DNA of 64,000 bases, taken from Verrucomicrobiota bacterium. GTDB lineage: Bacteria; Verrucomicrobiota; Verrucomicrobiia; CAIQCK01. The notes under the pieces were generated by a model that had not been told where the DNA came from, did not search any database, and was given only the letters and a program-made list of their open reading frames with translations. The position numbers and the translations under genes were made by a program. Position 1 is the first letter of the stretch. Each line of letters begins with the position of its first letter. This document shows, piece after piece, positions 21,168 through 26,688 of this stretch. The DNA is taken from the NCBI GenBank assembly GCA_026397915.1, contig JAPLTX010000021.1, positions 220,841-284,840 of the forward strand, written 5' to 3'.

Positions 21168-22724
21168 ATGTGCCAGTGTCATCATTCGATCTCGTGTTCC
21201 GGTTGTGGTCACACCATGAGTCGCAGGGGATTTCTCACGCGTTGCGCAACCGTTGCGGCGACTGCCGGCGCGCTACGACCCAGCGCCAGCCGGGCCGATG
21301 ACGCGAAGCCGCGCGTGGCGCTGGTGTTCCTCGCCAACAGCTCGGGCCTTGAGATGTGGCCCTACCCAAACTACGACTGTCCGCGCCGCCACGCGGAGAT
21401 CATCAAGCTGCTCAAGGAAGGTTGTCCGCAGGTCGAGTTCGTGCCCGTGGTTGTGAGCAAGCCTGCCGAGGTGGAGAAGGCCATTGCGCTCAAGGACACC
21501 GTGGACGGCTACCTCGTCTATACGGTCACATTGATGTGGGGACTGACAGGCGCGATTTTGCCGATTGGTAAGCTCGGCAAACCGATGTTCGTCGCCGACG
21601 AATATCTCGGCGGTTCGGGCGTGTTCCTTGTCGGCTACAGCGGTCTGCGCCGGCAGGGCATCCCGGCGGGCGCAGTGTCGAGCACGCGGCCGGAAGACCT
21701 CGTAGCCGTGGCGCGCGTTTTCGCCGGCGTGAAGAAGCCAGGCATGACGCCGGCGTTGTTCGCGCAGCAGTGCGACGAAGTTTATCGCCGCACGTTCCCG
21801 AAGGTCGGCGCGATGAAGTGCCTTGAGGATAAGGTGACGCTGACCGGCATCGGCGAATGCGTGGAGCGGCTCAAAAAGTCGCGCTTTCTCATCGTCGGGC
21901 CGAAGTTCACCGGGCAGAAGCGCGACTTCCTCGGAGCCAAAGGCATCTACATCGGCTTCGAGGAACTGAGGACGTTCTACGAGAAGGTGGACCGCGACGC
22001 AGCGGCCGAGGTGGCGCGGCGTTGGTGCGCGAAAGCTGAAAAGGTCGTCGAGCCGACCGTGGAGTGGATCAACAAGGCCGCCGCTGTTTATCTGGCGACG
22101 GTGGAGTTGATGAAGAAACACAACACCGACAGCGTGACCATGAACTGCCTCGGCGGATTCTCCAGCGGCCAGTTGCCGGCGTATCCGTGCCTCGGCTTCA
22201 TGCAAATCCTCGACGACGGCGGCCAGGGCGTCTGCGAAGCCATGCCTGACGATTCGCTCAGCATGATCATGGCGCGCATTCTCACCGGCCGTGCCGGCTA
22301 CGTTTCCGACCCGGCGCTGGACACCTCTAAGAACCAGATCGTCTATTCCCATTGCATGGCGCACACAAAGGTGTTTGGTCCCCAAGGCACGGCCAACAAG
22401 TTCCACATCCGCACGCTCCACAACCGCGACCCACGCGGCTGCTGTGCCGAGTCGTTCCTGCCGGAGGGCTACATGACCACCACGTTCCGCACGAGCGTCG
22501 CGCGTAAGCTGATGGTCATTCACCAGGCGAAGGCCGTCGGCAACCTCGACGCCGACCGCGGCTGCCGCACGCAACTGCTCGGCGAAGTCCGCGGCGACAT
22601 CGGCAAGCTGTTCGCCGAATGGGACCGCTTCGGCTGGCATCGTGTCACCGTCTATGGCGACATCCAGGAGCCGTTGATCGAGTTTGGCAAGGCGCTCGGC
22701 TTGCAGATTATCCACGAAGCGTAG
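21168..22724 (+). CDS. Tat-exported L-fucose/arabinose-isomerase-fold protein (Cys form)
   Basis: The product has 518 residues. A GGAGGAG ribosome site 7 nt before the ATG fixes the start. The first 16 residues are rich in Cys and His (MCQCHHSISCSGCGHT), then comes the Tat signal SRRGFLTR. The body resembles the FucI/AraA sugar-isomerase fold: N-terminal Rossmann-like domains (VALVFLANSSGLEMW, KDTVDGYLVYTVTLMWG) and a C-terminal domain with CLGFMQILDDGGQGVCEAM, YSHCMAHTKVFG and a GCRT motif (Cys466), ending RVTVYGDIQEPL. It is a paralogue of the product of 24926-26455, in which that Cys position is a TGA. Reaction and substrate are not known; fold assignment is by motif pattern only. Confidence 0.65.
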   Translation: MCQCHHSISCSGCGHTMSRRGFLTRCATVAATAGALRPSASRADDAKPRVALVFLANSSGLEMWPYPNYDCPRRHAEIIKLLKEGCPQVEFVPVVVSKPAEVEKAIALKDTVDGYLVYTVTLMWGLTGAILPIGKLGKPMFVADEYLGGSGVFLVGYSGLRRQGIPAGAVSSTRPEDLVAVARVFAGVKKPGMTPALFAQQCDEVYRRTFPKVGAMKCLEDKVTLTGIGECVERLKKSRFLIVGPKFTGQKRDFLGAKGIYIGFEELRTFYEKVDRDAAAEVARRWCAKAEKVVEPTVEWINKAAAVYLATVELMKKHNTDSVTMNCLGGFSSGQLPAYPCLGFMQILDDGGQGVCEAMPDDSLSMIMARILTGRAGYVSDPALDTSKNQIVYSHCMAHTKVFGPQGTANKFHIRTLHNRDPRGCCAESFLPEGYMTTTFRTSVARKLMVIHQAKAVGNLDADRGCRTQLLGEVRGDIGKLFAEWDRFGWHRVTVYGDIQEPLIEFGKALGLQIIHEA

Positions 22725-24925: not shown

Positions 24926-26455
24926 ATGAGTGACATCTCTCGCCGTGCGTTTGTCCAAGCTTCATCCGCCGCCATCGGTGCGTGTGCGGTAGCCGCTCAG
25001 CCACCAGAGCGCAACGCACATCGCGGGGAGCGCGCGAAGGTTTTCATGGTGATGTTCGGCACCGCGCCCTCGCAGGACGACACTGACATCAGGCCGATGA
25101 CCCACGCGGAGATCGTCCAGCGGTTGCAGCGGGACTGCGACGGCGTGGAGTTCGCCGTCCGGGACCTGGCCGCGGGCGCGAAGCTGGACGCGGTGCTCAA
25201 CGAGGTCAAGGACCTCAAGCGGCAGCAGTTTGACGGCGTCATCATCTACGGCTGCCCCAGGGAATACGACCTGTTGAGGAGCGGGCTGCCGACGATCAAC
25301 GTCGCGGTGCTCAACGACTTCATGAACATCCCGTTTCCGCTCTATCGGAAGAACCGCACCATCGGCGCGATGCTCGACCCGTGGGGGTTCTGCGCCGATG
25401 CGGCTGTCTCCGAAAAAATGTTCCTCGACCTGATCGCCAAGGTGAAGTTGGTCCGCGCGCTCAAGCGCATGAAGAGCGAGCACATCCTCACCGTGACCGA
25501 TTCGCCGCGCGTGAACGTCATCTATGGCGACCTGCTGAAAAATCCGCCGCCGGACTACAACGAGCAGATTCTCAGCGCGATTGACCAGACCTTCGGCACG
25601 CACGTCACCAAGATCGGCACAAAGGAAGTCGTCGAGGAGCCGTATATCCGCGACCTCTGGAAAAACGACAGCCCCGAGGCCAATGAAATCGCCAAGCGAT
25701 GGATTCGCGACGCGGAGAGGATGTTCGGCACCACCGAATCGGAGGTCGTCCGGTCTGCGAAGGTTTATCTGGCGATGAAGTGGCTGATGGAGCGGCACAA
25801 CGCCACGGCGATGGCCTACCACATTCGCACGCTGGTGCCGAACCCGCGCCGCGAGGACTACGTCGTGTCGTGCCCGGCGACTTCGGAGTTCCAACTGCAC
25901 AACATCGTTGCCAAGTGCCAGTCGCACCTGAACATCCTGCTCTCCGAGATGATGCTGCAATACGCCTACGGCCGGCCGAGCATGTTGGGCGACTTCTCGG
26001 TGGACACCTACAACAACACCTCCTGCGTCCAGCATTGCGAGGGGCCGTGGAACGCCTGGGGCGACGACCGGCGAGTGCCCTACAAGATTCGGGACCATCG
26101 CGAGCGGCCGGTGCGCAAGCGCTCGCTGCCGGGCGTTGGAGTCGGCTGGTGCATCCTGTATCCGCCCAACGAGCCGGTGACGATGTGGCAACTCGACGTG
26201 CTCTCCAAGGAGGTGCTCGTCCACACGGGCCGGACCGTGCCGATGTATAAAGGGCGCGTCAAATACAAGGACCACTTCTACGACATGATGTGACGGACCA
26301 AAATAGTGGCATCGGTCGATGCCAAAAAAGTCCAGCGTCACATCTACCCCGACAAATACGGCGTCCACCGGTGCGCGACGTTCGGCGACCTGCGCGAAAC
26401 GGTGAAGGACATCGCCGGCCTGCTCGGCTTCACGGCGGTCGAGGAAGACCGGTAG
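24926..26455 (+). CDS. Putative selenoprotein: Tat-exported sugar-isomerase-fold protein (TGA at 26291 as Sec456)
   Basis: Translation starts at 24926 (AAAGGAGG 5 nt upstream) with the Tat signal SRRAFVQASS. A conventional reading stops at TGA 26291-26293 after 455 residues. The same frame then continues without stop for 53 codons to TAG 26453-26455 and reads RTKIVASVDAKKV...YGVHRCATFGDL...LLGFTAVEEDR, which aligns with the C-terminus of the paralogue at 21168-22724. There the TGA position is Cys466 in GCRT, followed by 52 residues. A hairpin with a GGUC loop follows the TGA. The best reading is a 509-residue selenoprotein with Sec456. Body motifs include VFMVMFGTAPSQDD, QFDGVIIYGCPREYD and SVDTYNNTSCVQHCEG. 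A plain nonsense mutation is the alternative. selA, selB, selC and selD are not in this window. Confidence 0.75.
26294..26333 (+). promoter_or_regulatory. Candidate bacterial SECIS element
   Basis: The apical stem is a perfect 7 bp, TGGCATC (26307-26313) with GATGCCA (26318-26324), closed by the tetraloop GGTC (26314-26317). A lower stem GGAC (26295-26298) / GTCC (26330-26333) is separated by an A-rich internal loop. The first loop G is 21 nt after the TGA, within the 16-37 nt range known for bacterial SECIS elements, and GGUC is the loop sequence recognised by SelB in E. coli fdhF. Confidence 0.75.
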
Positions 26456-26688
26456 CGCGCGACTTGCGGCTTGGTGCCGGCGATTCGGGTTCGCCGCGTC
26501 GGATGACCACTTGTTCTGGTGTTGATTGTCGGCTGCGATTCCGGTGGTTAGCGCGCAGTCAATTCGCGAGAGGAACGTGCATGAATATCAGGAGCGTGGC
26601 GGATGGACGAGGACAGCGGAGCAGGCTGTCTAAGACGAAGCGACAGCGTCCAGCGTCATGGAGCGACCCCAACTGCACAGCTGAGACA
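26456..26688. other. Gene-free stretch after the selenoprotein gene
   Basis: This is 233 nt between the TAG at 26455 and the convergent terminator. A short open frame from ATG 26581 shows no recognisable protein and an Arg/Ser-rich random-looking product. I see no tRNA, repeat or strong promoter. Confidence 0.5.

Follow-up and report, generated by a model that had tools for sequence, protein, structure and literature searches.

The window analyzed here is a 64,000-nucleotide stretch of DNA from a Verrucomicrobiota bacterium (GenBank contig JAPLTX010000021.1), and the gene under study lies on its forward strand, starting at position 24926. An earlier, sequence-only reading of this DNA had proposed that the frame of the gene runs on through a TGA at 26291, and that this TGA encodes selenocysteine (Sec) in a protein exported by the twin-arginine (Tat) pathway. 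The frame was confirmed: counted from ATG 24926, TGA 26291-26293 is codon 456, and 53 sense codons follow before TAG 26453-26455. The Tat export signal was likewise recovered, with NCBIfam model TIGR01409. A paralogue with cysteine (Cys) at the corresponding position lies 2.2 kb upstream of the Sec gene; as had been claimed, the tail beyond the TGA aligns with the C-terminal end of this protein, with the TGA opposite Cys466 in a Cys-Arg-Thr motif. This Cys-type member of the superfamily also keeps the catalytic Glu (E357) discussed below. The features of the gene and its paralogue are as follows.

24926..26455, + strand: complete read-through open reading frame (ORF) of 509 residues with predicted Sec456; relatives have the same extent
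24926..25000, + strand: Tat signal peptide (SRRAF); TIGR01409, 18.9 bits against a cut-off of 16.7
26291..26293, + strand: TGA, predicted codon of Sec456; TGA in 17/17 DNAs, Cys in homologues
26294..26452, + strand: tail of 53 codons; translation past the Sec codon is predicted
26453..26455, + strand: final stop, TAG
21168..22724, + strand: Cys-containing paralogue, Cys466 at the Sec column by sequence alignment

The contigs of 84,980 species genomes were scanned with two peptide patterns taken from the family alignment. This gave 17 loci in metagenome-assembled genomes (MAGs) named as Verrucomicrobia, Planctomycetes/Pirellulales, Acidobacteria/Bryobacterales and unclassified bacteria. The site is covered by 16 of these loci (L042 stops short of it), making 17 DNAs once the window was added, and every one of them has TGA at the site followed by the tail RTK(I/L)VASV...YGVH. 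The tail is 53 or 54 codons long in the 16 sequences whose end is visible (the contig of L030 ends earlier). The ratio of nonsynonymous to synonymous change (pN/pS, a ratio of means over 136 pairs of the 17 sequences) was 0.197 for the tail and 0.281 for the 52 codons preceding the TGA, as against 0.952 over 40 codons past the final stop in the 16 sequences with a visible end. Final stops in these 16 members were TAG in 7, TAA in 6 and TGA in 3, so TGA still terminates genes in some of these genomes. Because the same TGA was found in 17/17 DNAs of separate MAG records, a sequencing error at TGA 26291, which the sequence-only reading had named as a way to be wrong, is very unlikely. In the genomes sampled, family members are rare: among 387 Verrucomicrobiota, the window genome alone has a close copy, and among 392 genomes from the phylum of G392, G392 alone does.

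A first protein search returned 306 matches, of which 120 were listed, every one ending in MM directly before the site; the comparison covered these relatives as protein sequences. When only the C-terminal part of the read-through product served as query, four proteins came up, of which three have Cys and the other, P0123, has Trp; with the corresponding part of a Cys form there were 18, counting the query itself. All 20 close tail-bearing homologues (P0124-P0143) have Cys at the site, in a protein listing that cannot include TGA members. Among 37 distant ORF rows from genome searches (25–32% identity, at least one gene being present twice through overlapping loci), 36 have Cys and one is a gap, short of the site. 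Homologues with neither Cys nor TGA, a second way in which the proposal could have failed, were thus limited to P0123. L022, a distant homologue whose match contains a TGA, was considered as a further Sec member and rejected, because its residue at the site is Cys. The tree groups the 16 TGA sequences entered into it as a single clade (support 1.0), joined by the 20 close Cys forms (0.96), and from this topology it is most likely that Sec replaced an older Cys once. The Tat motif RRx[FL] was present in 16/17 TGA sequences (the 17th, L043, is without its N-terminus) and in 112 of the 120 listed database relatives, but in 0/20 close Cys homologues, so that gain of Sec and gain of export seem to coincide.

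The perfect 7-bp stem with a GGUC loop that had been described downstream of the TGA was found again.

26307..26324, + strand: apical hairpin resembling a bacterial selenocysteine insertion sequence (bSECIS), with a 7-bp stem and the loop GGUC starting 20 nt past the TGA

The stem halves are 26307-26313 and 26318-26324, with the loop at 26314-26317. The lower 4-bp stem claimed alongside it fared less well: it forms in the fold of the window (26295-26298/26330-26333) but, of the 17 folds computed for the relatives and the window, just some contain it, and a role for it is unsupported. RNA 26285-26345 folds at -26.2 kcal/mol (z -5.18), and none of 200 shuffles was as stable. With 823 TGA triplets on one strand of the window and 834 on the other, the hairpin described here is the sole one that has a 7-bp stem and an N1-GU-N2 loop starting 16–37 nt downstream; it is reached twice, since TGA 26286 leads to it as well as TGA 26291. 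The arrangement of TGA and hairpin in the window is more than chance. PMC13188914 models the bacterial element as a 4–16 bp stem with a loop that is mostly N1-G(G/U)-N-N2, N1 pairing with N2, a spacing of 16–37 nt and an energy of -7.5 kcal/mol or lower; the window hairpin fits with 7 bp, G-GU-C, 20 nt and -9.8 kcal/mol. Scanning 26250-26460 against Rfam produced three matches, each scoring far under its gathering threshold.

Across the 17 sequences, stem and loop pair in standard fashion in 96.3% of cells, compared with 71.6% for the best slid version; the loop of L033 has three extra bases. Both the covariation score and the number of cells changed on both sides were above all 500 shuffles. 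Codons +6 (Ala) and +9 (Asp) pair in standard fashion through their third positions in 17/17 sequences (AU in 8, GC in 8, GU in 1), both sites being silent; of the 6,105 possible pairings between variable third positions (112 codon columns), this one ranks first in covariation. The next inward pair, between codons +7 and +8, closes the GU loop and ranks fourth. By these measures the hairpin looks selected as RNA.

An absence of sel genes would also have spoken against Sec, and the genome of the window contains tRNA-Sec, selA, selB and selD. The tRNA-Sec, with anticodon TCA, scores 64 bits against a cut-off of 47, and ARAGORN agrees. It opens a selC-selD-selA-selB cluster on contig C39, where selD, selA and selB lie within 4.3 kb after it, all above cut-offs. 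The host SelD (L012:1480-1600, C39) is itself a Sec form, reading SCAG-TGA-ASK, followed by a 9-bp stem with a GUU loop. Across the 17 holder genomes, tRNA-Sec reaches at least 60 bits in 13 and exceeds the cut-off in 15, selA is above cut-off in 14, and one or other of the two is found in 16. As a background, selA was found in 17 of 288 Verrucomicrobiota genomes, to be read with the Verrucomicrobia holder genomes being related to each other. The genome of L040 has another selA-like stretch besides (G400:C346:10-987, 371.4 bits), which contains one in-frame TGA.

We assessed the predicted fold with an AlphaFold2 model and structure comparison in Foldseek, which matched the L-fucose/L-arabinose isomerase (FucI/AraA) fold over the whole chain and supports the sugar-isomerase fold proposed beforehand. 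Sequence searches of PDB with the Sec-gene product (P0001), the Cys paralogue (P0002) and profile A2 returned no sugar isomerase, only weak unrelated matches (best E 0.0049). A Pfam scan of P0001 found 0 families at E 0.1 or better, and the NCBIfam scan had nothing above cut-off besides the Tat signal. Three codons were mapped by sequence alignment onto the isomerase active site.

25919..25921, + strand: Gln332 codon, column of FucI Glu337 / AraA Glu306
25991..25993, + strand: Asp356 codon, column of the metal ligand FucI Asp361
26366..26368, + strand: His481 codon, column of the metal ligand FucI His528 / AraA His450

The catalytic Glu column is Gln in 16/16 Sec rows, with the Asp and His kept. 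His481, the counterpart of the isomerases' metal-binding His, is located after the TGA; the tail thus likely completes the metal site, and since it would be needed there, termination at the TGA would leave the protein incomplete. Sec456 falls in the column of FucI Pro500 and probably faces the sugar pocket, because it is aligned beside the site where FucI has a Trp that contacts the substrate. The protein therefore resembles FucI and AraA in its predicted whole-chain fold and in the columns of its metal-site Asp (FucI) and His, and differs from them in its low identity (about 11%), the lack of a Pfam match, the change of Glu337/Glu306 to Gln, the extra Cys/Sec at the Pro500 column and the Tat signal. 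There is also weak profile similarity to the sulfoquinovose isomerase SftI (NF048012), stronger for the Cys paralogue (39 bits) than for the Sec protein, which has 17.3 bits against a cut-off of 700; nothing relevant on SftI was among the best-ranked literature matches.

Together these results suggest, with a probability of about 0.93, that TGA 26291 is decoded as Sec to give a 509-residue Tat-exported protein with a predicted FucI/AraA fold. Sec insertion at the TGA, taken by itself, is very likely, with slightly greater assurance still; insertion through SelB was the sole reading found that explains the TGA, the tail, the Cys homologues, the silent covariation and the sel genes together.

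Several observations weigh against this interpretation. P0123, an odd 285-residue ENA gene model of the tail, has Trp at the Sec site (by eye, its first residues are unlike the family). Two of the 17 apical hairpins, those of L032 (-7.3 kcal/mol) and L040 (-6.1), miss the -7.5 kcal/mol limit when taken alone. The three pairs changed on both sides were matched by 31 of 500 shuffles, the number of pair types was reached in 500/500 and shows no excess, and standard pairing in 17/17 is shared by 14 third-position pairs that lie outside the stem, with lower covariation. As to the machinery, 4 of the 17 holder genomes are without a tRNA-Sec of at least 60 bits and 3 without selA above cut-off, and neither reaches those thresholds in G402, where the gene copy breaks off ahead of the site and the top tRNA-Sec match has 49.5 bits (cut-off 47). 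In a control of 14 genomes the tRNA-Sec model matched all 14 at E 0.001 and was above cut-off in 5, so weak matches to it mean little. selA was above cut-off in 191 of 294 Planctomycetota genomes (the phylum of G392), and because it is so common in that sample, co-occurrence is informative for Verrucomicrobia only; the selA backgrounds cover Verrucomicrobiota and Planctomycetota. On the structural side, the AlphaFold2 model was built with Cys substituted for Sec, the Foldseek root-mean-square deviation is 7–8 Å across the whole chain, the alignments used to map the metal site have about 11% identity, and the missing catalytic Glu is an argument against a standard isomerase.

The main rival also takes the protein to be a selenoprotein, and gives Sec456 a redox or structural role, for example in a selenenyl-sulfide with Cys331 or Cys371. 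Both of these residues are invariant in alignment A2, the isomerase Glu is lost, and PMC13188914 describes many known selenoproteins as homologous to thiol oxidoreductases. Retention of the metal-site Asp356 and His481 and of the predicted isomerase fold argues the other way, as does conservation of the Sec-column Cys in homologues that keep the Glu as well. We regard a redox or structural Sec as a serious contender, at less than even odds.

Readings without selenium fare much worse. Were the TGA an ordinary stop, the functional product would have 455 residues and would end ahead of His481 and of the final strands and helix in the model, and the in-frame tail would not be expected to be conserved as protein in 17/17 DNAs at the low pN/pS found there. 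All 120 listed database proteins (of 306) do end at the site, as expected, because gene callers treat TGA as a stop, and we consider this explanation highly improbable. Equally improbable is selenium-free decoding of the UGA, whether by a suppressor or by a near-cognate tRNA for Trp. The Trp of P0123 is in its favor, and against it stand the Cys, rather than Trp, of the 20/20 close homologues, the SECIS-like hairpin covarying at silent sites and the full sel set including a Sec-type SelD. Two further ideas can be set aside as having almost no likelihood: TGA as a sense codon genome-wide, given TGA as final stop in 3/16 members and the identity of the TCA-anticodon tRNA (found at L001 in the window genome) as tRNA-Sec, and a sequencing error or decaying gene, a reading already contradicted by the shared TGA in separate records naming at least three phyla and by purifying selection on both sides of it.

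If Sec is inserted, binding of SelB to the GU-loop hairpin would deliver Sec-tRNA-Sec to the UGA, and the translated tail would complete the C-terminal domain and supply His481 as third ligand of a divalent-metal site. From the alignment, a sugar-converting metalloenzyme is the somewhat favored description of the Sec protein. The selenolate would most likely take over part of the lost Glu's work on an extracytoplasmic carbohydrate, as an acid-base catalyst or a metal ligand, because the Glu that transfers protons in FucI/AraA is Gln here; that Sec works in place of this Glu is put forward tentatively.

The surroundings of the gene offered little further. Upstream of the Sec gene, the ORF 23186-24748 matches part of the pectate lyase 2 / PelW-like family PF06917 (83.8 bits, best stretch 106-222), and an 870-residue ORF at 12674-15286 matches the hydrazine synthase alpha middle domain (PF18582, 77.6 bits). 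When the 83 flanking ORFs from the 17 loci and the window were compared all against all, there was one weak pair at E 1e-5 and no shared neighbor cluster at E 1e-8. Pfam matches of 20 neighbor ORFs showed no common theme, and thus gave no operon clue to function.

Like other selenoproteins decoded through bSECIS and SelB, such as formate dehydrogenase and SelD, the family has an in-frame TGA, an adjoining GU-loop hairpin, sel genes in the genome and Cys homologues; it differs from them in its motif, which is U-R-T, without UxxC or CxxU. The claim that no FucI/AraA-like selenoprotein is known agrees with Table 1 of the 2026 inventory (PMC13188914), whose 119 families and subfamilies include no sugar-isomerase-fold protein. 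Nor was a published sugar-isomerase selenoprotein, or a structure of a SelB-SECIS complex, among the best-ranked literature matches, the supplementary table of PMC4807772 (two planctomycetes) lying outside the search. This would be a new selenoprotein family with a fold absent from that table. It is possible, at odds short of even, that it is the first sugar-isomerase-fold selenoenzyme: a metalloenzyme that Planctomycetes, Verrucomicrobia and Acidobacteria export and whose selenolate, beside a divalent-metal site, stands in for the lost catalytic Glu in acid-base or metal-binding, non-redox carbohydrate chemistry.

Because all 120 listed database relatives end at the TGA position, they are probably some 53 residues short, with part of the predicted metal site missing, and expressing the annotated gene would probably give an incomplete protein. 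The Cys sister clade without the Tat motif is a natural comparison for what Sec adds. If true, the finding would extend a list dominated by thiol-redox folds by a selenoprotein family of another kind, and would raise the question of why an exported sugar-binding metalloenzyme needs selenium.
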